Part shown: piece after piece, positions 2,409-41,048 of the stretch | Numbering within the stretch: position 1 is the first letter of the stretch | Layout: the number at the start of each line of letters is the position of its first letter | Source of the DNA: Lysobacter sp. FW306-1B-D06B | GTDB lineage: Bacteria; Pseudomonadota; Gammaproteobacteria; Xanthomonadales; Xanthomonadaceae | Assembly: GCF_038446665.1 (NCBI RefSeq) | Contig: NZ_CP151802.1 | Span: forward strand, 2,356,001-2,420,000 | DNA length: 64,000 nucleotides | Direction: 5' to 3' | Position numbers and translations under genes: made by a program | Notes under the pieces: generated by a model | What the model saw: the letters and a program-made list of their open reading frames with translations, nothing else | What the model was told of the DNA's origin: nothing | Databases searched by the model: none

Positions 2409-2410
2409 GC

Positions 2411-8050: not shown

Positions 8051-11000
8051 ATGAGTACGCGGGCTGAAGCGGTTCGGGCACAGGCCATTCCCGGCGCGAC
8101 GCCGGCCATCGATTCCGCATTGCTGGACGTGCTGCCGCAGCACGCCGATGCCGCCGGCGACGCATCGCGTGCGCTGACGCTGGATGTGGATGACGGCCTC
8201 GCGTCCGCGCTCGCCGGCCACGGCCTGACCCGCGCCCATGCACTCGCCGCCGCGCTCGCGGCCGTGGAATCCTGGCTCTCAGGCAGCGAAGAAGTACTGG
8301 TGACGCTGTCGTGCGGCGATGCATGGCGGCAGGCGCGCATCGCGCCGGCATCGCTCGCCGCCGCGCATGTCGGTGCGACATTGAACGCCGCCGCCGAATC
8401 GACACAGCCGTGCGTGTGGGCGGTGAATGAAGCACCGGAAGCATCGCTTCCGGCGTTCGCCGCATCGCAGTGGCACCTGGACGACGGCGGCCTGCACGTC
8501 ACCTTCCGCGCACCGCTCACGCACGAGGCCGCGCTGCTGATCGGCGATGCGGCCACGCGTGTCCTTCGTGCGATCGCATCCGCTCCCGCGCAGCCGCTTT
8601 CGCGTATCGACGCACTCGATCCCGTCGACCGCGCCCGCCAATTGCAGGAGTGGGGCGTGGCGCCGCCCGCGCGCACGCTGCACGACACCGTGCACGCCTG
8701 CTTCGCACAGGCACTGGCGGCATGGCCGGACAAGGTCGCGGTGGAGCATCGCGATGCGCACATCACGTATTCCGAACTCGATCGTCGTGCCGCCGCGCTG
8801 GCCACGCGCCTGCGCGCGGCGGGCGTCGTCAAGGGCGACATCGTCGGCGTGGCGCTGCCGCGCTCGCTCGATGCCGTCGTCGCGCTGCTCGGCGTGATCA
8901 AGGCCGGCGGCGCGTATCTGCCGCTGGATCTTGCGCTGCCCGCCGATCGCCTGGCCTTCATGATCGACAACGCGCGTGTCCGCACGCTCGTGGCAGACCC
9001 CGCCATCGACGCCTCCGCGTTGCCGCGCGAACCGGCGCGCGTGAACGTCCACGGCGATGACGCCCCGGCCGCGTTCGATCCCGGCACGGACGGCGACTCG
9101 CTGGCCTACGTGCTGTTTACCTCCGGCTCCACGGGCGTGCCCAAGGGCGTGGAGATCCGCCACCGCTCACTGGTGCGCCGCCTGCACGGCATCGACTACG
9201 TCACCCTCGACACGCAAACGCGCATGCTGCACCAGGCGCCGCTGGGCTTCGACATCTCCGGACTGGAGCTGTGGGGCACGCTGTTCAACGGCGGCACGAT
9301 CGTGGTGCACGACGAAGTGGCGCCGACCGCCACGCGCCTGCGCGAGACCATCGAGCGCCACGATGTCAACGCCGGCATCATGGCCGCTGCGCTGTTCAAT
9401 GCCGTGGTGGACGAAGACGCCACGATCTTTGCCGGCCTGCGCGACCTGATCATCGGCGGCGAGGCGCTCTCCGTCGACCACGTGCGCCGCATGCACGCGA
9501 TCTCGCCGACGTTGCGCCTGCACAACGGCTACGGCCCGACCGAGTGCACGATCATGTGCACCTCCTACGAGATCCCGCGCGATCTGCCCGAAGGCACGGC
9601 GTCGATCCCGATCGGTCGGCCGTTGCAGGATGCCAGCGCCTACGTGCTCAACCGTCGCCTGCAGCCATTGCCGGCCGGCGTGATCGGCGAGCTGTGCGTG
9701 GGCGGCGTCGGCGTGGCGCGCGGTTATCTCAAACGCCCCGAACTCAATGCCGACCGCTTCGTGGCCAATCCCTATCGCGACGATGCGGACGTGCTGTACC
9801 GCACCGGCGACCAGGTGCGTTACCGCGACGACGGCCTGATCGAGTTCGTCGGCCGCACCGATGCGCAGGTGAAGATCCGCGGCTACCGCATCGAACTGAC
9901 CGAGATCGAGACCGTGCTTTCGCGCCACCCGGCGATCGCGCAGTGCGCGGTCGTGGCGCGCGCGGATTTCCCCGGCGAGAAGCGCCTGGTTGCGTACTAC
10001 GTCCCCACGGGCGTGGAGGCGCACACACCGCAGCTGCGCGCGCACCTGGCCGCGTCCCTGCCGCCGTACATGGTGCCCACGCGCTACGTGCGCCTGGACG
10101 AATTGCCGCTGACCGCGAACGCCAAGGTCGACCGTCGCGCGTTGCCGGCGCCCGATCGCCGCCGCCCGGAGCTCACCGTCGATCACGCGCCGCCCGTCAC
10201 GCCGCTGGAAACGAAGCTGTGCGCAGCCTTCGGCGCGTTGCTCGACATCGAGGGCGTCGGTCGCGACGACAACTTCTTCGAACTCGGCGGCAGCTCGCTG
10301 CTGGCGGTGCGCCTGGCCGAGCAGATCCGCAACGAAGGCTGGCAGACCGACGACGCCGGCCCGCGTGTGGCGGCGCCGACGATCTTCCAGAACCCGACGC
10401 CCGCGCGGCTCGCGGCCGTGCTCGAAGGCGTGCAGGCCGCGCAGGCGCCTGCGCGCCGCAGCGCGGTCGATGCACGCGAACCCATTGCGATCATCGCCAT
10501 GGCCGGGCGCTTCCCCGGCGCGGACGATGTCGAAGGATTCTGGAACAACCTCTGCGAAGGCCGCGACTCGATCACGAAGTTCCGCATCGACGAACTCGAT
10601 CCGGCAGTCAGCGCCAGCGACCGCAGCGACCCGTCCTACATCGCCGCACGCGGCGTGATCGACAACGTGGAGCTGTTCGACGCGGCGTTCTTCGGCATCG
10701 GCCCGCGCGAGGCGGAGTTGATGGATCCGCAGCAGCGCATCTTCCTGGAGCTGTGCTGGGAAGTCCTGGAGCGCGGCGGCCATGCACCGGATTCCACCGG
10801 CGCCACCGTCACCGGGATCTTCGGCGGCATGAACAACGCCACCTATTTCCAGCGTCACGCCTCCGCGCATCCGGAGCTGGTGAACCGCGTCGGTGCGTTG
10901 CAGGTGATGCTGGGCAACGAGAAGGACTACATCGCCACGCGCGTGGCGCACAAGCTCAACCTCACCGGCCCGGCCGTGAGCGTGCACACGGCGTGCTCGA

Positions 11001-14000
11001 CCTCGCTGGTGGCCATCGCGCAGGCGGTGGAGAGCCTGCAGTCCGGGCAGTGCGACATGGCGCTGGCCGGCGGTGTCGCGGTCACGTGCCCGCCGCGCAG
11101 CGGCTATCTGTACCAGGAAGGATCGATGCTGTCGCCGGACGGCCACACGCGCACGTTCGATGCGAACGCGAAGGGCACGGTGTTCGGCGACGGCGCGGCG
11201 GTGGTGCTGCTCAAGCGCCTGTCGGATGCGATTGCCGACGGCAACCCCGTGTACGCCGTGATCCGCGGCGCCGCGCTCAACAACGACGGCGCCAACCGCG
11301 CCAGCTTCACCGCGCCCAGCAGTGAAGGGCAGGCGGCGGTGATCGCGCTGGCGCACGACCGCGCCGGCATCGACGCGCGCAGCATTTCCTACGTGGAAGC
11401 GCACGGCACGGCGACGCCGCTGGGCGACCCGATCGAAGTCGAGGGCCTCACGCGCGCGTTCCGTCGCGGCACGCACGACACCGGCTTCTGCCGCATCGGC
11501 TCGCTCAAGAGCAACGTCGGCCACATGGTGACGGCCGCCGGCGCGGCGGGCGTGATCAAGACTGCGCTGGCGCTGCACGAGAAGCGCATTCCCGCGACGA
11601 TCCATTTCGAAGCACCCAACCCGACCATCGACTTCGCCAGCACGCCCTTTGTCGTCAATGCGCGCATGAGCGCATGGGACAACGAGGGCGACGCGCCGCG
11701 CCGCGCAGGCGTGAGTTCCTTCGGCCTGGGCGGCACCAACGCGCACGCGGTGCTGGAGGAAGCGCCGCTACTGCCCGAATCCGGCGACGCCGTCGGCGCG
11801 CAGCTGCTGGTGCTCTCCGCACGCACGCCGGCGGCGCTGGGCGCGGCGGTGAACCGGCTGGCCGATCATCTCCACGCGCATCGCGACCTCAACCTTGCCG
11901 ACGTGGCCTGGACGCTGGCCGTGGGCCGCAAGGCATTCGCGCACCGCATCGCCATCGCGGCCGACGACGTGTCCGGCGCGATCGACGCGCTGCGCGCGCC
12001 CGACACGCAGGCCGAAGCCGCACGCAGCCGACCGGCGCGCGCGGGCGGCATCGTCTTCATGTTCCCGGGGCAGGGCGCGACATACCCCGGCATGGGCCGC
12101 AGCCTGTACGAGAGCGAGCCGGTCTTCCGCGCCGCCCTCGATGAATGCGCGCAGCTGCTGCACACGGATCTGGGCTTCGACCTTCGCGAACGCATGTTCG
12201 GCGACGAACCCGAAGCGCTGCTGCCGACCTCGGTGATGCAGCCGGCGACGTTCGCCATCGAGTACGCACTGGCGAAGCTGTGGATCAGCCGCGGCATCGA
12301 GCCGGCGGCGATGATCGGCCACAGCATCGGCGAGTTCGTCGCCGCGACGCTGGCGGGCGTGTTCGAATTGCGCGACGCGCTGCATCTCATCGCCCGTCGC
12401 GGCGCGCTGATGCAGGCGCAGCCGGCCGGTTCCATGCTGTCGATCCGGCTGCCGGCGGACGCCGTGCAGTCGCGCCTGCCCGAAACGCTGTCGCTGGCCG
12501 CGGAGAACTCGCCGCTGGCGTGCGTGGTGGCCGGGCCGTCGGATGCCATCGCGGCATTCCAGGCGCAGCTGGAAGGCGAGGGCATCGCCTGCCGTGCGCT
12601 GCGCACCTCGCACGCGTTCCACTCGGTGATGATGGAAGCGGTGGTCGCGCCGTTCCGCGAAGCCGTGGCCGCCGTGCGCCTGAATCCGCCCACGCGGCCC
12701 ATCGTCTCCACCGTCACCGGCGCGGCGCTGGACGCAGACGAGGCCACCTCGCCCGACTACTGGGCCCGTCACCTCCGCGAGCCCGTGCGCTTCTCCAGCG
12801 CGCTGCAGGCGTTGCTGGAAGGCGAGGCTGACGTCGGGCGCGTGCTGCTCGAAGTCGGCCCGCGCGGCACGCTGAACGCGCTGGCGCGCCAGCAGCCGCT
12901 GGTGCAGAAGCAGCGCATCGCCGCCGTCGCCACGCTCACCGACAACCCCGCCAGCGAGTGCCGCGATGTCCTCGCCGCCGCCGGAAAGCTGTGGAGCCAG
13001 GGCGCCGCGGTGGATCCGGCGGCCTTCGACACGCGTGCGATTCGCCATCGCCTGCGCCTGCCGACCTATCCATTCGAGAGACAACGTTATTGGGTGGAGG
13101 CAGTACCCGCGAACCCGAGCAACGTCATTCCCCATCCGGCCGTCGCGGCCGCCGCACGAACCCCGACCGTACTGGAGACCGTCATGCCGCAGTCCACGCC
13201 CGCCGCCGTCCCCGTCGCCCCCGCGGCCGCCACCGGCCGTCGCGAGCGCCTGGTCGGGCAACTGCGCGGCCTGTTCGAGAACGTCGCCGGCTTCGACATG
13301 ACCGACGCGGACGCGGACACCAACTTCATCGAGCTGGGCCTGGACAGCCTGATGCTGACCCAGGTCGCGGTGCAGTTGCAGAAGGAATTCGGCGTGCCGG
13401 TGAACTTCCGCCAGCTGATGGGCGACTGCGCCAGCCTGGATCGCCTGGCCGGAATGCTCGATGCGGAACTGCCGGCCGAAGCCGTACCCGCGCCAGTGGC
13501 CGCCGCGCCGGTGGCCGTCGCCGCACCTGCCGCGTACGCGCCGGTCGCGATGGCGCCGGTCGCATTGCCTGCGCTCGATGGCGGCAACGACTTCACCCGC
13601 CAGGTCATCGCCCAGCAGATGCAGTTGATGGCGCAGCAGCTGGCGCTGTTGTCCGGCGGCGTCGCCGCGCCGGTCGCGACGGCTCCCGTCGCCGTGCCCG
13701 CACCGCAGCCCGTCGCCGCGGCGCCGGTTCCGGTCGCATCCGCACCGGCCGCCGCGCCCAAGCCCGCCGAAGGCGAGGAAGACACCGGTGCCGTGCAGCA
13801 GAAGTACGACGTCAAGAAGGCCTTCGGCGCGATCGCGCGCATCGACAACAACGCCGAGCTGGACCTCTCGCCGCAGCAGAAGGCCAAGCTCGACACGTTC
13901 TTCGACCGCTACATCGCGCGCACGCGCAAGTCGAAGGAGTACACGCAGGCCAACCGCGCCCAGCTCGCCGATCCGCGCGTGGTCAACGGCTTCCGTCCGC

Positions 14001-15352
14001 TGACCAAGGAGATCGTCTACCAGATCGTGGTGGAGCGCTCCAAGGGTTCGCGCGTGTTCGACATCGACGGCAACGAGTACATCGACGCGCTCAACGGTTT
14101 CGGCATGAGCCTGTTCGGCTGGCAGCCGGACTTCGTGCTCGACGCAGTGCGCGAGCAGCTCGACAAGGGCTACGAGATCGGCCCGCAGCACCCCGTCGCC
14201 GGCGAAGTCGCGCAGCTGGTGTGCGAGCTCACCGGTCACGACCGCGCCGCGCTGTGCAACACCGGTTCCGAAGCGGTGCTCGGTGCGCTGCGCATCGCCC
14301 GCACGGTGACGGCGCGCAGCACGGTGGTGCTGTTCACCGGCTCCTATCACGGCATCGTCGACGAAGTGATCGTGCGCGGCACCAAGTCGCTGCGCGCGGT
14401 GCCGGCGGCGCCGGGCATCCTGCGCAACACGGCCGAAAACGTGCTGGTGCTCGACTACGGCACGCCGGAGTCGATGGAGATCATCCGCTCGCGCATCGGC
14501 GAGATCGCCGCGGTGCTGATCGAGCCGGTGCAGAGCCGCCGCCTGGACTTCCGTCCGGTGGAGTTCCTGAAGGAACTGCGCCAGCTCACCCAGGACAACG
14601 GCGCGCTGCTGATCTTCGACGAAGTGGTCACCGGCTTCCGCTCAAACCCGGGCGGCGTGCAGGCGATCTTCGGCATCAAGGCCGACATCGCGACCTACGG
14701 CAAGGTCGTCGGCGGCGGCTTCCCGATCGGCGTGATTGCCGGCAAGCGCGAGTACATGGACGCGCTCGACGGCGGCCACTGGCAGTACGGCGACGATTCT
14801 GTGCCGACGGTGGGCGTGACGTACTTCGCCGGCACCTTCGTGCGCCATCCGCTGGCGCTGGTCGCGGCCAAGGCCGTGCTCGAACACTTCAAGGCCGACG
14901 GCGGCGAGTTGCAGAAGCGCCTCAACGCCAAGGCCGAAGCGCTGGCGACGGACATCAACGCCTACTGTGCCGATGTCGGTGCGCCGGTGTCGGTGAAGCA
15001 GTACGCGTCGGTGTGGAAGACCCACTGGCCCGAGAACCACCCGCTGCAGGACCTGCTGTTCGCGGCGATGCGCCTGCGCGGCATCCACATCCTCGACAAC
15101 TTCCCGTGCTTCATCACCACGGCGCACAGCGACGAGGACATCGCGCGGATCGCCACCGCGTTCAAGGAATCGGTGAGCGAGTTGCAGGACATGGAACTGT
15201 TGCCACGCCGCGCGGCCACGCCAAAAACGGTGATGGACGCGAGCAAGCCCGTCGTGCCCGGCGCGCGCCTGGGCCGCGAGCCCGACGGCACGCCGGCCTG
15301 GTTCGTGCCGAACCCGGCGGAGCCGGGCAAGTACATGAAGGTGAGCGCATGA
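8051..15352 (+). CDS. Hybrid NRPS-PKS: (truncated C)-A-PCP-KS-AT-ACP-aminotransferase
   Basis: This 2433-aa synthetase has the following domains. Residues 1-205 look like a C-domain remnant without HHxxxDG. The A domain is about 209-720 (FTSGSTG from 356; A4 Asp401). The PCP Ser is 749. The KS is about 810-1235, with Cys982 in TACSTS. The AT is about 1335-1650, with Ser1425 in GHSIGE and HAFH at 1521-1524 pointing to malonyl-CoA. The ACP Ser is 1766. An Ala/Pro/Val linker follows, then a class III PLP aminotransferase (about 1950-2380; D2190, Lys2218 in YGKVVGGGFPIG). There is no KR or DH, so the beta-keto group should be transaminated to a beta-amine, as in the iturin/mycosubtilin first module. 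A strong AAGGAG supports the start. It overlaps the next gene by 4 bp (ATGA). Confidence 0.95.
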   Translation: MSTRAEAVRAQAIPGATPAIDSALLDVLPQHADAAGDASRALTLDVDDGLASALAGHGLTRAHALAAALAAVESWLSGSEEVLVTLSCGDAWRQARIAPASLAAAHVGATLNAAAESTQPCVWAVNEAPEASLPAFAASQWHLDDGGLHVTFRAPLTHEAALLIGDAATRVLRAIASAPAQPLSRIDALDPVDRARQLQEWGVAPPARTLHDTVHACFAQALAAWPDKVAVEHRDAHITYSELDRRAAALATRLRAAGVVKGDIVGVALPRSLDAVVALLGVIKAGGAYLPLDLALPADRLAFMIDNARVRTLVADPAIDASALPREPARVNVHGDDAPAAFDPGTDGDSLAYVLFTSGSTGVPKGVEIRHRSLVRRLHGIDYVTLDTQTRMLHQAPLGFDISGLELWGTLFNGGTIVVHDEVAPTATRLRETIERHDVNAGIMAAALFNAVVDEDATIFAGLRDLIIGGEALSVDHVRRMHAISPTLRLHNGYGPTECTIMCTSYEIPRDLPEGTASIPIGRPLQDASAYVLNRRLQPLPAGVIGELCVGGVGVARGYLKRPELNADRFVANPYRDDADVLYRTGDQVRYRDDGLIEFVGRTDAQVKIRGYRIELTEIETVLSRHPAIAQCAVVARADFPGEKRLVAYYVPTGVEAHTPQLRAHLAASLPPYMVPTRYVRLDELPLTANAKVDRRALPAPDRRRPELTVDHAPPVTPLETKLCAAFGALLDIEGVGRDDNFFELGGSSLLAVRLAEQIRNEGWQTDDAGPRVAAPTIFQNPTPARLAAVLEGVQAAQAPARRSAVDAREPIAIIAMAGRFPGADDVEGFWNNLCEGRDSITKFRIDELDPAVSASDRSDPSYIAARGVIDNVELFDAAFFGIGPREAELMDPQQRIFLELCWEVLERGGHAPDSTGATVTGIFGGMNNATYFQRHASAHPELVNRVGALQVMLGNEKDYIATRVAHKLNLTGPAVSVHTACSTSLVAIAQAVESLQSGQCDMALAGGVAVTCPPRSGYLYQEGSMLSPDGHTRTFDANAKGTVFGDGAAVVLLKRLSDAIADGNPVYAVIRGAALNNDGANRASFTAPSSEGQAAVIALAHDRAGIDARSISYVEAHGTATPLGDPIEVEGLTRAFRRGTHDTGFCRIGSLKSNVGHMVTAAGAAGVIKTALALHEKRIPATIHFEAPNPTIDFASTPFVVNARMSAWDNEGDAPRRAGVSSFGLGGTNAHAVLEEAPLLPESGDAVGAQLLVLSARTPAALGAAVNRLADHLHAHRDLNLADVAWTLAVGRKAFAHRIAIAADDVSGAIDALRAPDTQAEAARSRPARAGGIVFMFPGQGATYPGMGRSLYESEPVFRAALDECAQLLHTDLGFDLRERMFGDEPEALLPTSVMQPATFAIEYALAKLWISRGIEPAAMIGHSIGEFVAATLAGVFELRDALHLIARRGALMQAQPAGSMLSIRLPADAVQSRLPETLSLAAENSPLACVVAGPSDAIAAFQAQLEGEGIACRALRTSHAFHSVMMEAVVAPFREAVAAVRLNPPTRPIVSTVTGAALDADEATSPDYWARHLREPVRFSSALQALLEGEADVGRVLLEVGPRGTLNALARQQPLVQKQRIAAVATLTDNPASECRDVLAAAGKLWSQGAAVDPAAFDTRAIRHRLRLPTYPFERQRYWVEAVPANPSNVIPHPAVAAAARTPTVLETVMPQSTPAAVPVAPAAATGRRERLVGQLRGLFENVAGFDMTDADADTNFIELGLDSLMLTQVAVQLQKEFGVPVNFRQLMGDCASLDRLAGMLDAELPAEAVPAPVAAAPVAVAAPAAYAPVAMAPVALPALDGGNDFTRQVIAQQMQLMAQQLALLSGGVAAPVATAPVAVPAPQPVAAAPVPVASAPAAAPKPAEGEEDTGAVQQKYDVKKAFGAIARIDNNAELDLSPQQKAKLDTFFDRYIARTRKSKEYTQANRAQLADPRVVNGFRPLTKEIVYQIVVERSKGSRVFDIDGNEYIDALNGFGMSLFGWQPDFVLDAVREQLDKGYEIGPQHPVAGEVAQLVCELTGHDRAALCNTGSEAVLGALRIARTVTARSTVVLFTGSYHGIVDEVIVRGTKSLRAVPAAPGILRNTAENVLVLDYGTPESMEIIRSRIGEIAAVLIEPVQSRRLDFRPVEFLKELRQLTQDNGALLIFDEVVTGFRSNPGGVQAIFGIKADIATYGKVVGGGFPIGVIAGKREYMDALDGGHWQYGDDSVPTVGVTYFAGTFVRHPLALVAAKAVLEHFKADGGELQKRLNAKAEALATDINAYCADVGAPVSVKQYASVWKTHWPENHPLQDLLFAAMRLRGIHILDNFPCFITTAHSDEDIARIATAFKESVSELQDMELLPRRAATPKTVMDASKPVVPGARLGREPDGTPAWFVPNPAEPGKYMKVSA

Positions 15353-18300
15353 ATGCAGCCGTGTTCGATAAGGGCAGGTTGGACAAGTCGAATGGAACCG
15401 ACACGGCCGTCGACTACGATCCGTTCGCCGACGGCCCGCTCTCCCGCGTAGCGCCCACCACCGAACCGCAGCGCGAAGTCTGGCTGGCCGATCGCCTCGG
15501 CAACGACGCCTCGCTGGCGTACAACGAGTCGATCTCGCTGGACTTCCGCGGTCCGCTGTCCGTGGATGCGCTGCAGGCCGCGCTGGCTGGGCTGGTGGCG
15601 CGGCACGACATCTTGCGCGCCAACTTCGGCCCCGACGGCAAGACGCTGTGCGTCGGCGACGAGCGCGCCATCGACTTGCCGCTGATCGACCTGTCCGCAC
15701 TGGACGACGCCGAGCGCGCCGCACGCATCGCCGCGCACGCGCGCGAGGTCGTGGAGACGCCGTTCGATCTCGACCACGGCGCACTGCTGCGCGCCGAACT
15801 GCTGCGCCTGTCCCTCGACCATCATCATCTCGTGCTCACCGCGCATCACCTGGTCTGCGACGGCTGGTCGTGGTGGGTGATCGTGCGCGAACTGGGCACG
15901 CTGTATACGCAGGCGGTGGGCCAGAGCGCGCAGCCGCTGCCGCCCGCCGAATCCTTCGCCGACTACGCGCTGGCCGAGGCCGAACATCCGCACGGTGCGA
16001 CGTACCGCTCCGACGAGGCGTACTGGCTCAAGCGTTTTGCCGACGGCGGCCCGGTGCTGGATCTTCCGACCGACCGCACGCGGCCGACGCGCCGCACGTT
16101 TGCGTCGATCCGCGAAGACCACATCCTCGACAACGAACTCGTCGCCGCCGTGCGTCGCCTCGGTGCGCGCCAGGGCGCGAGCCTGTTCGCGACGTTGCTG
16201 GCGGGTTTCGCCGGCCTGCTGTCGCGCCTGACCGCGCAGAACGACGTGGTCATCGGCATTCCCGCCGCCGGTCAGTCGGTGGACGGCCACGACCATCTGG
16301 TCGGTCATTGCGTGAATCTTCTGCCGCTGCGCTTCGAACTCGACCAGGCGCAGCCGTTCGAACAGGCACTGGGCGCGGCCCAGTCCACGCTGCTGGATGC
16401 CATCGAACACCAGCGCTACACCTTCGGCACGCTGCTGAAGAAGCTGCCGTTGCAGCGCGATCCCGCACGCCTGCCGCTGTGCAGCGTGATGTTCAACATC
16501 GACCAGGCGATGGACCAGGAGAGCACCGGCTTCCACGGCCTGGGCATGCGCCTGATCACCAACCCGCGCAGCTACGAGAACTTCGAGCTGTTCGTCAACG
16601 CCGTGCAGGTGCAGGGCGGCATGCGCCTGGAGTGCCAGTACAACACCGACCTGTTCGACAACGCCACGATCCGCCGCTGGCTGGCCGCGTACGAAACGCT
16701 GTTGCGCGCCGCCGTGGCACGGCCCACGCTTGCGTTCGGCCGGTTGTCGGTGGTCTCCGATGCCGCGCGCGATGAACTGCAGGCGCTGCAACCGGCAGCG
16801 GTCGCGTTCGACCGCGAGTGCCGCATGCACGAGGCGTTCGAACGTCAATGCGATCGCACGCCGGAGCGCGTGGCGGTGGAGTTCAACGGCGAGTCCATCC
16901 GCTACGACGAACTGGAAGCACGCGCCAACCGCATCGCGCACCTGTTGCGCGCGCGCGGCGTGCACCGCGGAACGCTGGTCGGGTTGGTGCTCGATCGCGG
17001 CGTGGACATGCTGGCCGGCCTGCTCGGCGTGTTGAAGGCCGGCGCGGGCTATGTGCCGCTGGACCCCAATTTCCCCGCCGAACGCCTGGCCTACATGGCC
17101 GGCGACGCGGGCCTGGCTGCGCTGCTGACGACGACGAAGCACGCCGCCCATTTCGATCTGCGCGGGCGCCCCGTGTTGTCGCTGGACACGCTGCACGACG
17201 AACTTGCATCGCTGCCGGCCACGCGCCTGGGCCGCGACGAGGGCGCGGCGCAGCCGGAGTCGATCGCGTACGTGATCTACACCTCCGGCTCCACCGGCCG
17301 ACCGAAAGGCGTGCAGGTGCCGCATCGCGCGGTGAGCAACTTCCTGGCGAGCATGGCGAAGGAGCCCGGGCTGTCCGCCGAGGACCGCCTCGTCGCGGTG
17401 ACCACGCTATCGTTCGACATCGCCGTGCTCGAACTGCTGTTGCCGCTGAGCGTGGGCGCGCGCGTCGTACTGGCCGACCGCGTCACCGCCGCCGACGGCG
17501 TCGCGCTGAAGGCGCTGATTGCCGCCAGTGGCGCCACCGTGATGCAGGCAACACCGGCTTCGTGGCGGCTGCTGCTGGACGCCGAATGGAAGGGCGATGC
17601 GAACTTCAAGATCCTGTGCGGCGGCGAAGCGCTGCCGCCGGACCTGGCCGCGCAGTTGCTCAAGCGCTGCGGCTCGCTGTGGAACGTGTACGGGCCGACC
17701 GAAACCACGGTGTGGTCGACCTGCTCGCGCGTGACGACGGCAAGCGACATCCACATCGGTCGGCCGATCGACAACACGCAGGTGTGGATCCTGGATCCGC
17801 GCGGCGAGCTGTGCCCGCTCGGCGTGCCGGGCGAGATCTGGATCGGCGGCGACGGCGTGACGCTGGGGTATCTCAACCGCCCCGAACTCACCTCCGAGCG
17901 CTTCGTGCCCGATCCGTTCTCCACCGCGAGCGGTGCGCTGCTGTATCGCACCGGCGATCGCGGCCGCTGGCGTCCGGACGGCGTGCTCGAGCACCAGGGC
18001 CGCCTGGATTTCCAGGTGAAGGTGCGCGGTTATCGCATCGAACTGGGCGAGATAGAAGCACTGCTCGCGGCGCATCCGCAGGTCGCGCGCGCCGTGGTCG
18101 TGGCGCGCGAGGATCGCCCGGGCGATGTGCGGCTGGTGGCCTATGTGGTGTCCGACAGCCTGACCACGGGGGAGGGCGAATCGCTGCTCGCGTCCTACCT
18201 CAAGGGCTCGCTGCCCGACTACATGATCCCGCAGCACATCCTGTTCCTCGACGCGATCCCGCTGCTGCCCAACGGAAAGATCGACCGCAAGTCCCTGCCG

Positions 18301-21300
18301 GTGCCGGACCTGGCGGTGAAGCTCGCCGGCGAACGCGTCGCGCCGCGCAACGCGCTGGAACGCACCATCGCCGAGGCGATGGCGCAGGTGCTGGGCGTGG
18401 CCGAAGTCGGCGTGGACGATGATTTCTTCTCGCTGGGCGGACACTCGCTGCTGGCCGCGCAGCTGACCTCGCGCATCAACAAGGAACTGGGCATCGCGCT
18501 GTCGCTGCGTGCTCTGTTCGACGGCCCGACCGTGGCCAAGCTCGCGCGCATGGTGCAGGGCATCGACGGCGAAGCCGCGCCGAAGCGCGAGCCGATCAAG
18601 CCGCTGGCCGACCGCACGCGCGGGCCGATGTCGGTGATGCAGGAACGCCTGTACCTGCTGGAGCAGTTCAATCCTGGGCAGATCACCTACAACACGCCCA
18701 GCGCGCACCGACTGCGCGGGCCGTTGCAGCTGGATGCCTTCCAGGCCGCGATCGACGCGATGATCCAGCGCCAGAGCGTGCTGCGCACGACGATCGGTCT
18801 GGTCGACGGCGAACCGATGCAGATCGTGCACGACGCGGTGGATGTCGACATCACCGACGTCGTCGACGTCAGCCACTTGCCGAAAGACGAGCGCGAGGCC
18901 GAAGTCTCGCGTCGCATGGACGCGTTGATCCAGACGCCGTTCGAACTCGACCGCGCGCCGCTGGTCCGCTCGCGCCTGTTCCGCCTGGGGCCGGAAGAAC
19001 ACGTGTGGTTCTTCATGACCCACCACCTCATCTGGGACGGCTGGTCGTTCGACCTGATGTACACCGACATGGCCGAGCTCTACGCCGCGCAGATCGAAGG
19101 CCGCGAGCCGACGCTGCCGGAACTGACGGTGAGCTACGCCGACTTCTCCGCCTGGCACCACGAATGGCTGCAGGGGCCGGAGTACGCCAAGCAACTGGCC
19201 TTCTGGCGCGAGCGCCTCGGCGGTACAGCGCAGGGCACGGCGTCCAGGGGAATCGAAGCGTTGCCGACCGACATGCCGCGTCGTCCCGGAATGTCGGGCA
19301 AGGGCGTCACGCATCGGATCGTGGTGGCGCACGACGTGACGGCAGCGCTGCACGACACCGCCAAGCAGGTCGATGCCACGCTGTACATGGTGCTGCTCAC
19401 CGCGTACTTCGCGTTGATCAGCCGCACCTCGGGCCTGCGCGAGCTGATCGTCGGCACGCCGGTGCGCGGTCGCAACACGGCCGAGGTGGAGAACCTGATG
19501 GGTTACTTCACCAGCCTGCTGCCGCTGCGGATGGAGATCGATCCGACGATGACGTTCGCGCAGGCCGTCAAGCAGGTGAAGGACGTGGTGCTCGACAGCT
19601 TCGCGCACCCCGACATCCGCCTGGAAGACCTGGTGCGGGAGCTCAGCGTACGCAGCCGCGAAGGCGGCGCCGTGCTCTACCACGCGCTGTTCTCGTTCCA
19701 GGACATCCGCCAGCGCGTGTGCGAATGGGGTCCGCTCACGCACGAGCGTTATCCGGTGTTCCAGACCGCGTCCACGCAGGACCTGGGCCTGTGGTTCGTC
19801 GAACAGGACACGGGTCTGTCGGGCGGCTTCATCTACAACGCCGACATCTTCCTCGACGACACCGCCGCGCTGCTGCGCGACCGTTACATCGCCGTGCTCA
19901 AGGCGCTGGGACGCGATCCGTCGTTGACGCTGGATCAGATCACGCAGTTCGACGACGGCCAGGCGCTGCAGTTCGGCCGCAGCGTCGAGTCGACGCCGAT
20001 CGAGGCTGCGCCGGCCCCGGCGGCGCTGGACGCCGAACTGTACGAACCGCTCGACGAACTGGGCACGCAGCTGCTGGCGATCTGGCGCGACCTGCTGCGC
20101 AAGCCCGACATCGGCGCGGACGATGATTTCTTCTCGCTCGGCGGGCACTCGTTGCAGGCCGTGCAGATGTTCCACCGTTTCAACCGCGAGACCGGCGTGA
20201 ACCTGCCGCTGGCAACGCTGCTCACCGCGCGCACCGTGCGTGCGCTGGCGCGCGAGTACCAGCGCGCCCGCAACGACGCCGACGCGCTGGACGGCGGCGA
20301 GCGCGATCCGTGGGCGCCGCTGGTGTCCATCCGCGCGCAGGGCGATGCCAAGCCGCTGTTCCTGGTGCATGCCGTGGGCGGCAACGTGCTCAACTACCGC
20401 CCGCTGGCCGAAGCGATGCCTGCCGGCATCCCGGTGTACGGCCTGCAGGCGCTGGGTCTGGACGGCCGCACCGCACCGCTGGAAAGCGTGGAGGCGATGG
20501 CGCAGCGTTACGTGGCCGAGATCCGCAGCGTGCAGCCGCACGGCCCGTACCACCTGGCCGGCGGTTCGATGGGCGGCATCATCGCCTACGAAATGGCGCA
20601 GCAGTTGATGGCTGCCGGTGAGACGGTCGGCCTGCTGGGCCTGGTCGACACCTCCGCCGAATTCGGCCTGCGCTATCGCGACGACGCCCGCCGCGGCCTG
20701 TCCGCGCGCGTGCAGCGACTGCATCGACGCATGCAGGGGCAATCGCTGGGCGAACGCATCGCCACGATCGGCGGTGTGGTCAACGGCCGACTGCAGGCAT
20801 CCAAGCTGCGCCAGCAGGCGCAGGCCGCGCGTGAAGCGGGCGAGGCCCTGCCGCACAACGTGCGCTATGCGGAGCTGGAAGCCACGCACATGCGCGCGTA
20901 CGGGAAGTACGTGGTCAAGCCCTATCCGGGCGCGCTGGTGCTGTTCCGCGCCAGCGATCAACCCTCGATGCTGCGCAACAAGCCCACGCTGGGCTGGGAC
21001 GGTCTGGTCGGTTCGGTGGATGTCCTCTCGATCCCCGGCGACCACCGCGTGATGATCGAATCGCCGTCGCTGGTGGCCCAGCTCAGCAACGCCATCCTGC
21101 GCGCGCAGGGTCGGGTCGCCGTGACCGCGCCGGACGCACCGCGCGAAACCGCCGCAACGGGCGATGGCGTGGCCGCGCAGGACCCGCGCGCCGAGTACCT
21201 GCGCAGCGTGTGGAAGGACCTGCTCGGTGTCGAGGTCGGCATCGACGACAACTTCTTCGACCTGGGAGGCAATTCGATGCTTGCCGTGCAGATGTCCAGC

Positions 21301-21477
21301 CGCGTGGTGAAGGACACGGGCGTGCGCATCCAGCTGATGCGGCTGGCGGCGCAGAACCTTGCGCAGATCGCCTCCGACCTGCCCGAGCACATCGTCCGCG
21401 AGGAAAAGGGCGGCGTCGGCGCGCGCATGGCGCGGCAGATGAAGCGCCTGCTGCGCACGCCGGGGACGGTGGAATGA
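15349..21477 (+). CDS. Nonribosomal peptide synthetase C-A-PCP-C-PCP-TE-PCP
   Basis: This 2042-aa synthetase has these domains. C1 has H166-H167...D171-G172. The A domain is about 490-1000 (YTSGSTG from 644; A4 Asp690), and its specificity residues read approximately D-I-L-Q-L-G-V-V-W, close to the glycine code. PCP1 Ser is 1033. C2 has H1225-H1226...D1230-G1231. PCP2 Ser is 1601. The TE has Ser1740 in GGSMGG, Asp1767 and His1899. A third PCP (Ser1976) follows the TE. All catalytic residues are present. The second condensation module has no A domain, and the TE is not C-terminal; both are unusual. The start is coupled to the previous stop (ATGA); the open frame upstream is only a GC-rich shadow. 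Confidence 0.95.
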   Translation: MNAAVFDKGRLDKSNGTDTAVDYDPFADGPLSRVAPTTEPQREVWLADRLGNDASLAYNESISLDFRGPLSVDALQAALAGLVARHDILRANFGPDGKTLCVGDERAIDLPLIDLSALDDAERAARIAAHAREVVETPFDLDHGALLRAELLRLSLDHHHLVLTAHHLVCDGWSWWVIVRELGTLYTQAVGQSAQPLPPAESFADYALAEAEHPHGATYRSDEAYWLKRFADGGPVLDLPTDRTRPTRRTFASIREDHILDNELVAAVRRLGARQGASLFATLLAGFAGLLSRLTAQNDVVIGIPAAGQSVDGHDHLVGHCVNLLPLRFELDQAQPFEQALGAAQSTLLDAIEHQRYTFGTLLKKLPLQRDPARLPLCSVMFNIDQAMDQESTGFHGLGMRLITNPRSYENFELFVNAVQVQGGMRLECQYNTDLFDNATIRRWLAAYETLLRAAVARPTLAFGRLSVVSDAARDELQALQPAAVAFDRECRMHEAFERQCDRTPERVAVEFNGESIRYDELEARANRIAHLLRARGVHRGTLVGLVLDRGVDMLAGLLGVLKAGAGYVPLDPNFPAERLAYMAGDAGLAALLTTTKHAAHFDLRGRPVLSLDTLHDELASLPATRLGRDEGAAQPESIAYVIYTSGSTGRPKGVQVPHRAVSNFLASMAKEPGLSAEDRLVAVTTLSFDIAVLELLLPLSVGARVVLADRVTAADGVALKALIAASGATVMQATPASWRLLLDAEWKGDANFKILCGGEALPPDLAAQLLKRCGSLWNVYGPTETTVWSTCSRVTTASDIHIGRPIDNTQVWILDPRGELCPLGVPGEIWIGGDGVTLGYLNRPELTSERFVPDPFSTASGALLYRTGDRGRWRPDGVLEHQGRLDFQVKVRGYRIELGEIEALLAAHPQVARAVVVAREDRPGDVRLVAYVVSDSLTTGEGESLLASYLKGSLPDYMIPQHILFLDAIPLLPNGKIDRKSLPVPDLAVKLAGERVAPRNALERTIAEAMAQVLGVAEVGVDDDFFSLGGHSLLAAQLTSRINKELGIALSLRALFDGPTVAKLARMVQGIDGEAAPKREPIKPLADRTRGPMSVMQERLYLLEQFNPGQITYNTPSAHRLRGPLQLDAFQAAIDAMIQRQSVLRTTIGLVDGEPMQIVHDAVDVDITDVVDVSHLPKDEREAEVSRRMDALIQTPFELDRAPLVRSRLFRLGPEEHVWFFMTHHLIWDGWSFDLMYTDMAELYAAQIEGREPTLPELTVSYADFSAWHHEWLQGPEYAKQLAFWRERLGGTAQGTASRGIEALPTDMPRRPGMSGKGVTHRIVVAHDVTAALHDTAKQVDATLYMVLLTAYFALISRTSGLRELIVGTPVRGRNTAEVENLMGYFTSLLPLRMEIDPTMTFAQAVKQVKDVVLDSFAHPDIRLEDLVRELSVRSREGGAVLYHALFSFQDIRQRVCEWGPLTHERYPVFQTASTQDLGLWFVEQDTGLSGGFIYNADIFLDDTAALLRDRYIAVLKALGRDPSLTLDQITQFDDGQALQFGRSVESTPIEAAPAPAALDAELYEPLDELGTQLLAIWRDLLRKPDIGADDDFFSLGGHSLQAVQMFHRFNRETGVNLPLATLLTARTVRALAREYQRARNDADALDGGERDPWAPLVSIRAQGDAKPLFLVHAVGGNVLNYRPLAEAMPAGIPVYGLQALGLDGRTAPLESVEAMAQRYVAEIRSVQPHGPYHLAGGSMGGIIAYEMAQQLMAAGETVGLLGLVDTSAEFGLRYRDDARRGLSARVQRLHRRMQGQSLGERIATIGGVVNGRLQASKLRQQAQAAREAGEALPHNVRYAELEATHMRAYGKYVVKPYPGALVLFRASDQPSMLRNKPTLGWDGLVGSVDVLSIPGDHRVMIESPSLVAQLSNAILRAQGRVAVTAPDAPRETAATGDGVAAQDPRAEYLRSVWKDLLGVEVGIDDNFFDLGGNSMLAVQMSSRVVKDTGVRIQLMRLAAQNLAQIASDLPEHIVREEKGGVGARMARQMKRLLRTPGTVE

Positions 21478-22283
21478 GCGCGCCCTTCTTCTTCGGCGCG
21501 GCGGACCGCCACCTGTTCGGCCTGCTGCACGAATGCGACGGCGCCGCGGCGTCGACCGACCACGCGTTGCTGGTCTGCGCGCCGCTGTTGCAGGACGGCA
21601 TACGCAGCCATCGTGCCTTGTGGGCGCTGGCGGAAGCGGTCGGTCAGCATGGCGTTCCGACGCTGACCTTCGACTGGTTCGGCACGGGCGATTCGGCCGG
21701 CGAGGACACCGCGCTCACGCTGCCGGGCATGCTCGACGATCTGCAGCAGGCATCGAGCGAACTGCTGCGTCGCAGCGAAGTACCGCGCCTGCACTGGCTG
21801 GCGCTGCGCAGCGCCGCGTTGCCGCTGTTCGCACACCTGGAGCGCAGCGCCGAGCCGGCGGAAGTGGTGCTGTGGGATCCGCAACTCGACGGTGCGCGCC
21901 TGGTGCGCGAGTGGAGAGCGCAGCACCAGCGGCAACTTCACGAAAGCGGGCGCTACGTTAACGCGCGCCACGAGTCCGATGCCGGCGAGCTGCTCGGCTT
22001 CGGTGTCGACGACGCGCTGCTGTCGGCGCTGGAAGGCCTGGACGCGGCGAAGCTGCGCTTGCCGAGCGGCACCCGTGTGCGCATGGCGGTGTGGGAGATG
22101 GACGAGGAACTCGACCGCTTCGCGCGCGAGCAGCGCGCCAACGGCGTGTCGGTGGAGGCCGTGCTGCTCGACGAAGGCGAGCGGCCGGAATGGACCGTGC
22201 CGTCGCGCTTCGGCGGCCAGGTGTTTCCGCGACGCGCCGTGGCCCAGCTGGCGCAGCGCATGACCGAACAGGTGCCGTGGTGA
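21474..22283 (+). CDS. Alpha/beta hydrolase-like protein, exosortase-A-associated hydrolase 2 type
   Basis: This 269-aa alpha/beta-hydrolase fold protein reads MSAPFFFG...LFGLLHECDG, then FDWFGTGDSAGED, then WDPQLDGARLVREW. The family resemblance is to hydrolase 2 of exosortase-A EPS loci (TIGR03101 by memory). The expected nucleophile elbow GxSxG reads LALRSAAL, without the flanking glycines, so classical serine-hydrolase activity is doubtful. It overlaps the NRPS stop by 4 bp (ATGA) and is followed by its partner with another 4-bp overlap. This suggests an editing, carrier-unloading or scaffolding role for the assembly line. Confidence 0.7.
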   Translation: MSAPFFFGAADRHLFGLLHECDGAAASTDHALLVCAPLLQDGIRSHRALWALAEAVGQHGVPTLTFDWFGTGDSAGEDTALTLPGMLDDLQQASSELLRRSEVPRLHWLALRSAALPLFAHLERSAEPAEVVLWDPQLDGARLVREWRAQHQRQLHESGRYVNARHESDAGELLGFGVDDALLSALEGLDAAKLRLPSGTRVRMAVWEMDEELDRFAREQRANGVSVEAVLLDEGERPEWTVPSRFGGQVFPRRAVAQLAQRMTEQVPW

Positions 22284-23161
22284 ATCTGCAGCTCGACGAG
22301 AAAGCGCTGGAACAACGCCAGGAACTGCCCTCCGCACGCGCAGCCGAAGGGCTGCCCGCACTGGAGGCCACGGAGACGGCGCACCGCTTCGGCGATGGCC
22401 TGGTCGGCGTGGTCACCCGTCCGCTGGGCGCGGCCTCGAAGGTGGGTGTCGTGCTGCTCAATGCCGGCCTGACGCGCCACACCGGGCCGTTCCGCGTGCA
22501 CGTGGACCTCGCAAGAATGCTGGCGGCGCAGGGTTTCGCCGTCCTGCGTTTCGACCAGTCGGGACTGGGCGACAGTGCGCTGCCCGGCAAGGCCGCGGGC
22601 GAGCGCCGCCATCGTGAGACCGATGCCGCGATGCGACTGCTCGCGCAGGAAGCCGGGGTGGAGCGTTTCGTGCTGTGCGGTCTGTGTTCCGGCGCGGACG
22701 ACGCCTTCCATGTCGGCGCGAGTGATCCGCGCATCGCCGGTGCGATCCTGCTGGACGGCGTCGCGTATCCCACGCCGGGCTTCTGGGTGCGGCACGCGCT
22801 GCCGCGCCTGCTCGACTTCGGCAAGGTGCTGCGCTTCCTGCTGTCGCGCCGCAACGCCGGGCCATCACTGGCGGATTTCCGCGACTGGCCCGCGCGCGCG
22901 GATGCACGGCGCATGCTGGCCGAGATGGTCGAGCGCGACGCGAGGCTGCTGTTCGTGTTCACCGGCGGCGCGTACCACTACTTCAACCACCGCTCGCAGC
23001 TGACCGCCTGCCTGGGGCGCGCGGCGGCATCGCCGCAGGTGAGGCTGGAGTTCTGGCGCGAGTACGACCACACCTTCTTCCTGCGCAAGCACCGGCGCGT
23101 GCTGCTGGCGCGGATCGGCGCGTGGATGCGTTCGGAATTCGGCGCAGTGGGGTCGCATTGA
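22280..23161 (+). CDS. Alpha/beta hydrolase, exosortase-A-associated hydrolase 1 type
   Basis: This 293-aa alpha/beta hydrolase has GVVLLNAGLTRHTGPFRVHVDLAR (oxyanion region), FDQSGLGDS, and a nucleophile elbow CGLCSGADD with Cys rather than Ser at the nucleophile position. The late segment YDHTFFLRKHR carries a likely catalytic His. The resemblance is to hydrolase 1 of exosortase-A loci (TIGR03100 by memory), which often has such a GLC elbow. The GTG start at 22280 overlaps the previous stop as GTGA, and no nearby ATG is in frame. By position it could be a type II thioesterase-like or transfer enzyme for the NRPS product. Confidence 0.72.
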   Translation: MNLQLDEKALEQRQELPSARAAEGLPALEATETAHRFGDGLVGVVTRPLGAASKVGVVLLNAGLTRHTGPFRVHVDLARMLAAQGFAVLRFDQSGLGDSALPGKAAGERRHRETDAAMRLLAQEAGVERFVLCGLCSGADDAFHVGASDPRIAGAILLDGVAYPTPGFWVRHALPRLLDFGKVLRFLLSRRNAGPSLADFRDWPARADARRMLAEMVERDARLLFVFTGGAYHYFNHRSQLTACLGRAAASPQVRLEFWREYDHTFFLRKHRRVLLARIGAWMRSEFGAVGSH

Positions 23162-23165
23162 CGCG

Positions 23166-24662
23166 ATGAGCGAGTCTTCCCCCGGTCTGGCAAAGCACTA
23201 CCTGCGCTATTCCACCGCCAACGTGCTGGTGATGATGGCGGGACTGGTGTCGTTCCCGCTGCTCACGCGCCTGCTCGACAACACGCAGTACGGCATCCTG
23301 GGCTACTACGAGACCTGGGTGCTGATGGCGGTGGCGGTCGCCAAGCTCGGCGCGCAGCATTCCATCCAGCGCTTCTATCCGCACGGCGGCGACGAAGCGC
23401 GCATGCGCGCCTTCGCCACCAACCTGTTCTACCTGCCGATGCTCGGCTCGCTGGTGCTGTGGGCGTTCGTCGGCGCGGTGGCGATCGTGCACGGCTACGC
23501 GACGGGCGACGGCCATTCGCCGGTGTTCTGGATGGCATTGGTGATGACGCCGATGCTGGTTTATTCCAGCCTGGTGGAGACCGTGCTGCGCGTGACCGAG
23601 CAGTCGCGAACGGTGATGTTCACGCGCGTGGCGTGGCGCTGGTTGCAGCTGGCGCTGATGCTCGGCGCGGTGATGGCGGTGCAGCACACGGCGGCCGCCG
23701 CGTACGGCGGCAAGCTGCTGGCGGTGGTGATCGGCCTGGTGTTCTACCTGGGCTGGGCACGCCGGCACCTGCACTTCGCGCGCGATACGGTGAACGCGGG
23801 CGAGATGCGCCAGTCGTTCGCCTACGGCATGCCGCTGGTGATGACCGAAATCCTCGCCGTCGCGCTGGTGTCGATCGACCGGATCATGCTCAAGGGCCTG
23901 TCGGGCGATTTCGCGGTGGTGGGCATCTACAGCGTCGGCGCGGCGCTGGCGATGCAGGTGCACATGTTCATGAACCTCACGGTGTTCGAGTCGTTCACGC
24001 CCGCCGCCAATCGCGTCTATGTGACCGAAGGCGCGGCCGCCGTGCGCGCGCTCAAGCGCACCATGCTGATGCCGATGACCTACGCCGCGATCGGCGTGGC
24101 GCTGCTGTTGTGGACGCTGGGCACCGATCTGATCATCGCGCTCAGCGGCGCGAGCAAGGCGGCGTCGGGGCCGGTGTTCGAGCTGATGGGCGCGATGAAC
24201 GCTGTGCTGCCGGTGCTGCTGGTGTGCGGTTTCGGCCTGGTGCTGGAACGTCGCACCAAGACGGTGATGGTGCTGATGTGCGGTGCGGTGGCGATCAACG
24301 CGGCGCTGAACTGGTGGTGGATTCCGGCCTGGGGTGTGATGGGCGCGGCGTATGCGACGCTGGCGAGCTCGGCGGTGTCGAGCATCGCGGCCTGCCTGCT
24401 GGTCAACCCGGCGCTGCGGCAGTTCCCGGATCGACGCACGCTGCTGACGGCGTTGTGCGCGGGAGTGCTGGCGCTGGCGGGCGAGTGGATCACCGTGCAT
24501 CTGGACCTGCGGCCGGGCTGGCAGCGGATGCTGGTCGGTGGGATGTTGATCGGCGGGCCGTATCTGCTGGCGTTGCTCACGCTCGATGGGCGCTTGCGCG
24601 CGATGCTGTATCCGAAGTTGCGTGCGGTGGAGCGGCGGGTGAGTGAGGGGGTTGTGGGGTAG
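23166..24662 (+). CDS. Polysaccharide flippase (Wzx-like, MOP superfamily)
   Basis: This 498-aa polytopic inner-membrane protein has about 12-14 hydrophobic helices. It opens with the typical HYLRYSTANVLVMMAGLVSFPLLTRLL and continues QYGILGYYETWVLM, a signature of lipid-linked oligosaccharide translocases. Its job would be to flip the undecaprenyl-linked repeat unit to the periplasm. It starts 4 bp after the hydrolase stop, so it is the last gene of the PPTase-to-flippase run. The synthetases are therefore embedded in, not merely next to, EPS genes. Confidence 0.88.
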   Translation: MSESSPGLAKHYLRYSTANVLVMMAGLVSFPLLTRLLDNTQYGILGYYETWVLMAVAVAKLGAQHSIQRFYPHGGDEARMRAFATNLFYLPMLGSLVLWAFVGAVAIVHGYATGDGHSPVFWMALVMTPMLVYSSLVETVLRVTEQSRTVMFTRVAWRWLQLALMLGAVMAVQHTAAAAYGGKLLAVVIGLVFYLGWARRHLHFARDTVNAGEMRQSFAYGMPLVMTEILAVALVSIDRIMLKGLSGDFAVVGIYSVGAALAMQVHMFMNLTVFESFTPAANRVYVTEGAAAVRALKRTMLMPMTYAAIGVALLLWTLGTDLIIALSGASKAASGPVFELMGAMNAVLPVLLVCGFGLVLERRTKTVMVLMCGAVAINAALNWWWIPAWGVMGAAYATLASSAVSSIAACLLVNPALRQFPDRRTLLTALCAGVLALAGEWITVHLDLRPGWQRMLVGGMLIGGPYLLALLTLDGRLRAMLYPKLRAVERRVSEGVVG

Positions 24663-27367: not shown

Positions 27368-27488
27368 GGCGAACACCGGGCGCGGGAAAGGGAGCGGGCG
27401 AGGGCCCGATACCGTGAAGAACGCGTTGTACGCCGTGCTTCGGCCTTCGCGTGCGCAGCCCGCCTGTTCATGCAAGACTGCGCCGGCC
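27368..27488. promoter_or_regulatory. Divergent promoter region between the beta-helix gene and the ydcF-like gene
   Basis: A 121-bp spacer separates two divergent starts, so both promoters must lie here or overlap it. No recognisable box is seen. Confidence 0.35.
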
Positions 27489-29788: not shown

Positions 29789-29798
29789 CGTGTCCCTC

Positions 29799-31690: not shown

Positions 31691-31700
31691 GGGCAGCACC

Positions 31701-35222: not shown

Positions 35223-35229
35223 GGCGGCC

Positions 35230-37756: not shown

Positions 37757-37778
37757 TGAATCTCCCCTGAGCTGGCTC

Positions 37779-40776: not shown

Positions 40777-41048
40777 GTCGGACAACCCCCTTGCATTCGT
40801 CCTGAGCGAACGGCGCGACGGCGGAAATCCGGCCAATTGGGCTCGTGCCGGGGGCATGCCGGCGCATGCCGGATTTCACGCCATTCCGACCTGCCCGGCG
40901 CGGGCCGCACTTTGCGTTGGAGGTATCAGGACGGCGGATCAGCGTCGTCCGGGGGAGCCGCCACGAAACACCGGCGGCGCGTGCGTGTCGGTCGCCCGGG
41001 CGGTCGTCACGCGTTGCCCGGTGAGGGCCTTTCCGGAATCGACCGTCC
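40777..41048. promoter_or_regulatory. Divergent EPS operon / galE promoter region with nested inverted repeats
   Basis: This 272-bp spacer drives the export-lipoprotein operon leftward and galE rightward. It holds a perfect 10-bp inverted repeat, GAAATCCGGC at 40824-40833 and GCCGGATTTC at 40868-40877. The arms enclose a smaller one, GGCATGC at 40853-40859 and GCATGCC at 40864-40870. Either may be an operator for an EPS regulator, or an mRNA hairpin. No clear -35/-10 pair is visible. Confidence 0.45.

Follow-up and report, generated by a model that had tools for sequence, protein, structure and literature searches.

In the 64,000-nucleotide stretch of the Lysobacter sp. FW306-1B-D06B genome analyzed here (hereafter, the window), a hybrid nonribosomal peptide synthetase–polyketide synthase (NRPS-PKS) assembly line was found in an exopolysaccharide (EPS) locus. 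The affiliation of the line with this locus is supported by conserved linkage and co-occurrence in related genomes, and there is a slightly better than even chance that the line is dedicated to the EPS, making a short acyl peptide and passing it to the polysaccharide pathway. The source genome (4.24 Mb, a single contig) has close relatives in Lysobacter sp. MMG2, L. soli, and L. panacisoli. The line is encoded on the plus strand by NRPS1 (8051–15352, 2433 aa) and NRPS2 (15349–21477, 2042 aa), followed on the same strand by genes for two proteins with an alpha/beta-hydrolase fold, one hydrolase-2-like (21474–22283) and one hydrolase-1-like (22280–23161), and for a Wzx-type flippase (23166–24662; PF01943, 70.9 bits). 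Reading of the sequence bore out the original prediction, made from the letters of the window, of five packed genes from NRPS1 to Wzx with these lengths and with 4-bp overlaps or a 4-bp gap: ATGA overlaps lie at the NRPS1/NRPS2 (15349–15352) and NRPS2/hydrolase 2 (21474–21477) junctions and a GTGA overlap at the hydrolase 2/hydrolase 1 junction (22280–22283; an upstream GTG at 22277 would give a 7-bp overlap), and a 4-bp gap (23162–23165) separates hydrolase 1 from the Wzx ATG at 23166.

The initiating sugar transferase and the phosphopantetheinyl transferase (PPTase) that had been placed upstream on the same strand were likewise confirmed by coordinates and profile scores. The Sfp-type PPTase occupies 4028–4771 of the plus strand (PF01648, 58.1 bits; alternative start 3941) and is one of two PF01648 matches in the whole genome; a PPTase is also found near NRPS1 in many relatives. 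EpsB_2, the initiating polyprenyl-phosphate sugar transferase (4908–6302, plus strand), scored 535.9 bits with TIGR03013 (cut-off 393.35) and was also over the cut-off for TIGR03025 (390.7 bits). Since the chain-length determinant (TIGR03007, 333.7 bits; cut-off 278.85) and the export protein (TIGR03027, 199.2 bits; cut-off 180) also exceeded their curated NCBIfam cut-offs, the locus is of the XrtA EPS type, whereas a search of the whole genome for exosortase (TIGR02602) gave no matches at E ≤ 0.001, so that an XrtA/PEP-CTERM system was not recognized. Between EpsB_2 and NRPS1 lies a gene with a DnaJ domain on the minus strand (6948–7643), which makes one continuous transcript from the PPTase through the flippase unlikely. 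The position of this gene between EpsB_2 and NRPS1 is kept in many relatives.

The aminotransferase (AMT) region of NRPS1 was sought in 297 genomes of the same family. A match at 1e-60 was obtained in 59 of them, seven of which had only a 36–41% identical AMT match and were dropped, leaving 52 carriers of the line; this number covers AMT-bearing lines only, because no AMT was found in the NRPS-PKS genes of three further genomes (G011, G015, and G063). EpsB_2 was over its cut-off in 91 of the 297 genomes, namely, in 51 of 52 carriers versus 40 of 245 non-carriers (Fisher p = 5e-31, kinship ignored), with 51 genomes having both, one the line only, 40 EpsB_2 only, and 205 neither. The line and EpsB_2 were located on the same contig in 45 genomes, at a distance of 7.2–17.5 kb in 44 of these, and on different contigs in six. 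An EpsB_2 homologue was present in 29 of the 30 loci read for gene order and hydrolase 1 in 26, and the order was kept across genera though most EPS proteins drop to approximately 50% identity (gene order and fusions in relatives were read from simple calls of open reading frames (ORFs)). Across 26 genomes, that of the window included, KS–EpsB_2 distances were correlated at r = 0.80, AT–EpsB_2 distances at 0.84, and A1–EpsB_2 distances at 0.58. The synteny in relatives (29 of 30 loci) and the KS–EpsB_2 correlation thus agree with the placement of the line in an EPS locus, as originally claimed. A chance neighbourhood is made very unlikely by the conserved linkage, the co-occurrence in 297 genomes, and the KS–EpsB_2 distance correlation. 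It is also very improbable that common descent alone keeps the two gene sets together, with separate expression and independent functions. The minus-strand gene between EpsB_2 and NRPS1, the opposite orientation of the main EPS gene run, and the lack of a kinship correction in the association test are consistent with such a history; however, the linkage persists where the surrounding gene order differs, the line and hydrolases 1 and 2 are linked in other phyla, and just one of the 206 genomes without EpsB_2 over the cut-off had the line (G176, approximately 360 contigs, 85% complete, with a sub-cut-off EpsB_2 match).

The domain order, established with Pfam and local profiles, is A-T-KS-AT-T-AMT in NRPS1 and C-A-T-C-T-TE-T in NRPS2 (A, adenylation; T, carrier; C, condensation; TE, thioesterase). 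In NRPS1, the A1 domain (8705–10150) has the pocket code D-I-L-I-L-G-G-I-M, the KS domain (10472–11764) has its Cys and two His motifs intact, the AT domain (12047–12967) has a HAFH motif, which we take to be of the malonyl type, and the class-III AMT (13928–15085) has the pyridoxal phosphate Lys motif GKVVGGG. The N-terminal ~210 aa of NRPS1 are perhaps a condensation-domain remnant, and a partial C domain stands at this position in some relatives. In NRPS2, the A2 domain (16840–18303) has the code D-I-L-Q-L-G-V-V-W, presumably of the glycine type, as is the pattern DILQxGxxW; the C-T module without an A domain (18607–20268) contains HHxxxDG, and the type I TE (20347–21081; GGSMGG) is followed by a further T domain (21187–21390). 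The two C domains of NRPS2, both of which keep HHxxxDG, are the only PF00668 matches of the whole 4.24-Mb genome. The succession KS-AT-T-AMT and then C as the first domain of the next protein, with intact catalytic motifs, is that of a hybrid NRPS-PKS with a beta-aminotransferase. The beta-amino product put forward in the original prediction is to be expected from this order and these motifs, and the product is most likely X-(beta-amino C2 unit)-Gly(-Gly), where X is the amino acid loaded by A1.

Comparison of the lines of relatives suggested which parts of the product may vary. The pocket codes were read, with the position numbers of GrsA (1AMU), via an alignment for which the two A domains of the window served as anchors; one position of the A1 pocket is read as L or I according to the anchor chosen. 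The locus counts for codes, hydrolases, and TE hold a few duplicates (L128/G165 and L149/G191) and, as L125, the species of the window itself. Of the 118 AMT domains, 92 show the Lys pattern GK..GGG, and DILQxGxxW was found in 72 of 115 A2 domains and in 19 of 28 A3 domains, the latter standing at the second module of NRPS2 in relatives. Meanwhile, 37 different codes were found among 102 A1 domains, including codes that we take to be of the Pro, Val, Ser, Thr, and Asp types. In the L. prati line (L197), A1 was 43% identical to that of the window versus 76% for KS and 75% for AMT, and therefore the change in A1 is local (a mosaic); in eight lines with Pro-type A1 codes, the identity was 41–44% for A1 and 70–75% for KS. 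Thus, a variable A1 with steady KS and AMT and a mostly glycine-type A2 points to a variable head on a constant beta-amino C2 unit with a mostly glycine tail.

Relatives of the line are encoded in 315 stretches from named genomes. The best 80 of these come from Lysobacter, Rhodanobacter, Frateuria, Luteibacter, Luteimonas, and Pseudoxanthomonas, many Bacteroidota, and metagenome-assembled genomes (MAGs) labelled Myxococcales/Myxococcaceae, Deltaproteobacteria, Acidobacteria, and Oligoflexia. The domain order of NRPS1 was the same in most complete examples, whereas NRPS2 differed, most Bacteroidota having C-A-T-TE and most of the Proteobacteria read having C-A-T-C-(A)-T, in many cases with no TE. 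In three MAGs (L138, L146, and L181; one each from Myxococcales, Acidobacteria, and Oligoflexia), the line is followed by hydrolases 2 and 1.

The two hydrolases had been equated in the original prediction with the pair of exosortase-A EPS loci. They have the same Cys/Arg elbow as the canonical proteins, but their scores are far below the family cut-offs (hydrolase 2, 64.2 bits to TIGR03101, cut-off 202.75; hydrolase 1, 72.5 bits to TIGR03100, cut-off 168.45), so that neither can be counted as a family member. Hydrolase 1 of the window has a Cys nucleophile (C137, numbered from GTG 22277) and His265, whereas hydrolase 2 has Arg112 at the nucleophile place. The Cys was conserved in 120 of 120 homologues of hydrolase 1 (best 120 of 517), and the Arg in 88 of 90 hydrolase 2 proteins found, the other two having a Gly and a gap. 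In canonical loci, Cys was found in 15 of 15 hydrolase 1 proteins over the cut-off and Arg in 14 of 14 hydrolase 2 proteins; in a second, overlapping canonical set, Arg was found in 22 of 22, including 14 members over the TIGR03101 cut-off. The Cys/Arg signature holds for the canonical members over the NCBIfam cut-offs (loci L205–L234), in genomes with ligase_PEP_1. In the AlphaFold models of the two hydrolases (predicted local distance difference test 86.8 and 90.4), the Cys and Arg are positioned at the strand-helix elbow, and a structure search with both gave best matches that were mostly esterases/lipases with 9–20% identity.

Of 229 genomes from the class of the host, 30 have hydrolase 1, and these same 30 have hydrolase 2. 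Hydrolase 2 is the C-terminal domain straight after the last T domain in G484 (C-A-T) and G440 (L235, A-T-C-A-T), and the same A-T-hydrolase 2 fusion occurs in single-module proteins of G492 (L236) and G346 (L237); hydrolase 1 is the next gene in all four. A single open frame encodes both hydrolase 2 and hydrolase 1 once in G497 and twice in G366, and P0313 is a further fusion. The fusion loci are L235, L236, L237, L238, and L239, with a stand-alone AMT-like gene also present in L236 and L237. The fusion of hydrolase 2 after the last T domain, with hydrolase 1 next to it, therefore places the pair at the release of carrier-bound chains, and it is likely an off-loading/acyl-transfer device.

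What occupies the EPS loci without the line was examined in 10 of the 40 EpsB_2-only genomes of the family at the locus level. Six loci were of the ligase type, three contained NRPS-PKS genes without a found AMT and with hydrolases 1 and 2, and one contained neither. Four stand-alone adenylating enzymes of the ligase-type loci, from three genomes, scored 361–457 bits to ligase_PEP_1 (TIGR03098), under its cut-off of 592.35; in the genome of the window, this profile had 10 matches, none over the cut-off (best 233.7 bits). Amidotransferase-like proteins were found near stand-alone ligases in two of the three genomes scanned, and an 88-aa ORF beside a ligase (L119) had no NCBIfam match at 1e-20, which is so stringent that a carrier protein could have been missed. 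The expectation that a ligase stands beside the same two hydrolases held outside the family, where all 20 genomes in which hydrolase 1 exceeded its cut-off also had ligase_PEP_1 over the cut-off (within 21 kb of hydrolase 1 in all 12 genomes with both on one contig), but not in the six ligase-type loci of the family, in which no hydrolase 1 or 2 was found at a profile threshold of >40 bits. Similarly, the idea that the line stands in the ligase's place agrees with the ligases in six of the 10 line-less loci, but some relatives hold both; a rule by which the NRPS always replaces the ligase set was consequently rejected (G022, G028, G174, G265, and others hold both).

The following course of synthesis is proposed. 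The local PPTase would arm the carrier domains, and A1 would load a lineage-specific amino acid X. Judging from the domain order and motifs, KS-AT would add one malonyl-derived C2 unit, the keto group of which AMT would convert to an amine; with an alpha-amino acid as X, the result would be a 3,4-diamino acyl chain. A2 of NRPS2 would then add glycine, and A2 most likely also charges the C-T module lacking an A domain with a second glycine, which we infer because many relatives have a glycine-type A3 at that module. The TE and the two hydrolases would take part in release: pseudo-hydrolase 2, with its Arg, presumably docks on the last carrier domain, and the Cys-bearing hydrolase 1 would take over the peptidyl group as a thioester and pass it on to the EPS repeat unit, at an amine or a hydroxyl. 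The acceptor is perhaps a sugar exposed by a deacetylase, with the transfer probably preceding the flipping of the unit by Wzx. The outcome would be an EPS bearing a small peptide that is probably cationic and whose head group varies between lineages. A broader proposal, for which the chances are tentatively put at somewhat under even, is that an NRPS-PKS with an exchangeable head and a mostly constant glycine tail builds a diamino peptide that a two-part Cys/Arg acyltransferase (hydrolases 1 and 2 of exosortase loci) hangs on the EPS, as a widespread and hitherto undescribed means of surface-polysaccharide diversification in which an A1 swap would act as a serotype-like switch.

A number of observations weigh against the delivery of the peptide to the EPS. 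No substrate could be assigned to the A1 code of the window, and 43 of the 115 A2 domains are off the DILQxGxxW pattern. The beta-amino step is not universal, because the NRPS-PKS genes of G011 (L113/L114), G015 (L105/L106), and G063 (L107/L108), which are accompanied by hydrolases 1 and 2, have no AMT domain found. Relatives with the line but without adjoining EPS genes, which the original prediction had named as contrary evidence, are represented by the single case of G013, where the line is located 690 kb from EpsB_2, still flanked by hydrolases 1 and 2 and a flippase-like gene (27.1 bits versus the Pfam cut-off of 28.2). The structure matches do not tell a hydrolase from a transferase, Cys-type alpha/beta hydrolases can be plain thioesterases, and a handover of the peptide to the polysaccharide, or to the lipid carrier of the latter, is presumed. 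Free release of the peptide without the hydrolases is possible because the TE motif of NRPS2 is intact. TE and hydrolase 1 were partly complementary in the loci (window excluded, its hydrolases being outside the set used), with phylum explaining much of the pattern: 29 of the 42 TE-less loci had hydrolase 1 and 13 had neither in the stretch read, 13 loci had both, and 54, nearly all from Bacteroidota (flanks read), had TE without hydrolase 1. The core can thus work without hydrolase 1, because in Bacteroidota it mostly ends in TE with no hydrolase 1 in the flanks read.

These data also bear on the possibility that the product is a diffusible small peptide (a signal, metal ligand, or protease inhibitor) that is exported by Wzx or otherwise and co-regulated with the biofilm matrix. 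This is unlikely, although it deserves to be kept in view: the intact TE motif, the mostly A-T-KS-AT-T-AMT/C-A-T-TE core of Bacteroidota without hydrolase 1, and the variable A1, which also suits a secreted metabolite, are all compatible with it. However, the line is genetically coupled to EpsB_2 over many genera, Wzx is the only transporter among the genes called adjoining the line, with no further exporter seen, and the hydrolase pair is common to EPS-type genomes with ligase_PEP_1 over the cut-off (20/20). Glycosyltransferases also rank among the most frequent families in the flanks of the Bacteroidota core: among 126 flank ORFs of 25 loci, PF00535 was found in 16, a PPTase fold in 10, and Cupin_8 in eight, in a tally that has no control set and includes a few ORFs (e.g., those of L153) belonging to the line. 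The reading as a siderophore or antibiotic cluster was set aside, as there was no further exporter among the genes called beside the line, and it is retained, at lower odds, within the diffusible-peptide alternative.

It is improbable, in turn, that the peptide caps or modifies not the mature EPS but the intermediate linked to undecaprenyl, or some other component of the envelope (lipid A, a lipoprotein, or O-antigen), with the EPS genes supplying only the carrier. The location of the line and hydrolases directly upstream of Wzx is consistent with such a target, and in another EPS system the assembly of repeat units has been proposed to require acylation of lipid-linked intermediates (PMC11340318); none of the tests made separates this target from decoration of the EPS itself.

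The EPS gene run on the minus strand (28541–40785) encodes the export protein, the chain-length determinant, a tyrosine kinase, a beta-barrel protein, two GT4 glycosyltransferases, a Wzy/O-ligase-like protein, two deacetylase-like proteins, a GT2 glycosyltransferase, and an stp1-type glycosyltransferase. The Wzy/O-ligase-like protein is over its Pfam cut-off, whereas the glycosyltransferases, the tyrosine kinase, the beta-barrel protein, and the deacetylase-like proteins (one weak, 20.2 bits) are recognizable below their own cut-offs. Genes at 1347–3670 (minus strand), presumably encoding an NAD-dependent sugar epimerase and a UDP-sugar dehydrogenase-like protein (labels assigned from the translations), recur as homologues next to the locus in many relatives. 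Positions 25532–28232 encode a DUF218 protein and a parallel beta-helix protein (choice-of-anchor Q, 35 bits); both genes accompany the locus in many relatives, the latter sometimes in two or three copies. In other genera, a Cupin_8/JmjC-like gene is located beside the line (L031:5450-6385, L045:6158-7063, and L062:1201-2043), the product of which may hydroxylate the peptide; no Cupin_8 gene is among those called next to the line of the window. In G013 (L061/L062), the line is a fused protein of 4258 aa, and a small PP-binding protein, two PKS-like ORFs, and a Cupin_8 gene are encoded nearby. A protein of ~525 aa with a GINT1_N-like region is encoded downstream of hydrolase 1 in other genera (L032:1925-3499, L066:761-2335, and L076:97-1674).

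In the open-access literature searched, no EPS-linked NRPS cluster of this architecture was found to be described, in line with the original statement that no characterized cluster was recognized; in the available part of a report on the EPS of Lysobacter soyae, a strain not checked for the locus, no peptide is named on the EPS (PMC10456730). Each half of the system is of a known kind, and it is their stable union, the logic of a variable head and a glycine tail, and the Cys/Arg pair that were not found described in that literature. If the proposed function is true, nonribosomal synthesis serves the decoration of the extracellular matrix in several phyla, beyond the production of free metabolites, and the product of many uncharacterized assembly lines is to be expected on the cell surface and not in the medium. 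It would also give a testable role to two exosortase-associated proteins that are named in NCBIfam merely as hydrolases, and would explain the adenylating ligase of canonical EPS loci.

The closest known loci are the XrtA EPS loci (TIGR03098, TIGR03100, and TIGR03101), with which the window shares EpsB_2, the chain-length and export proteins, the Cys/Arg hydrolase pair, and a carboxylic-acid-adenylating enzyme; in XrtA EPS loci, this enzyme is partnered by a carrier protein. The window differs in having a multimodular NRPS-PKS where the canonical loci have a single ligase, no exosortase match, no ligase_PEP_1 over the cut-off, and hydrolases far below their cut-offs. An analogy in working, claimed without membership, is the D-alanylation of teichoic acids by DltA/DltC, in which a carrier protein is charged by an adenylation domain and a surface polymer finally receives the acyl group, but with one amino acid versus a built peptide and with other transfer enzymes. 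Hybrid lines with an aminotransferase after KS-AT-carrier protein include those of the iturin/mycosubtilin and microcystin types. The flavipulchrin line is a further example (PMC12819058). As in these lines, an AMT-bearing PKS module followed by NRPS modules would place an amine at C-3; unlike them, the line of the window has a starter entering via an amino-acid-type A domain and not a fatty or phenylacetic acid, a very short predicted product, and linkage to EPS genes and hydrolases 1 and 2. Although its product is predicted, not isolated, and the word "exopolysaccharide" is absent from the main text of the 2013 survey that lists it (Table 2, PMC3870968), Pedobacter heparinus C6XWU5 (A-CP-KS-AT-CP-PLP1; predicted product Nrp-Mal-Gly-Pk) has the same domain order as NRPS1 of the window and a predicted glycine, and the AMT of other Pedobacter is 53–55% identical to that of the window.

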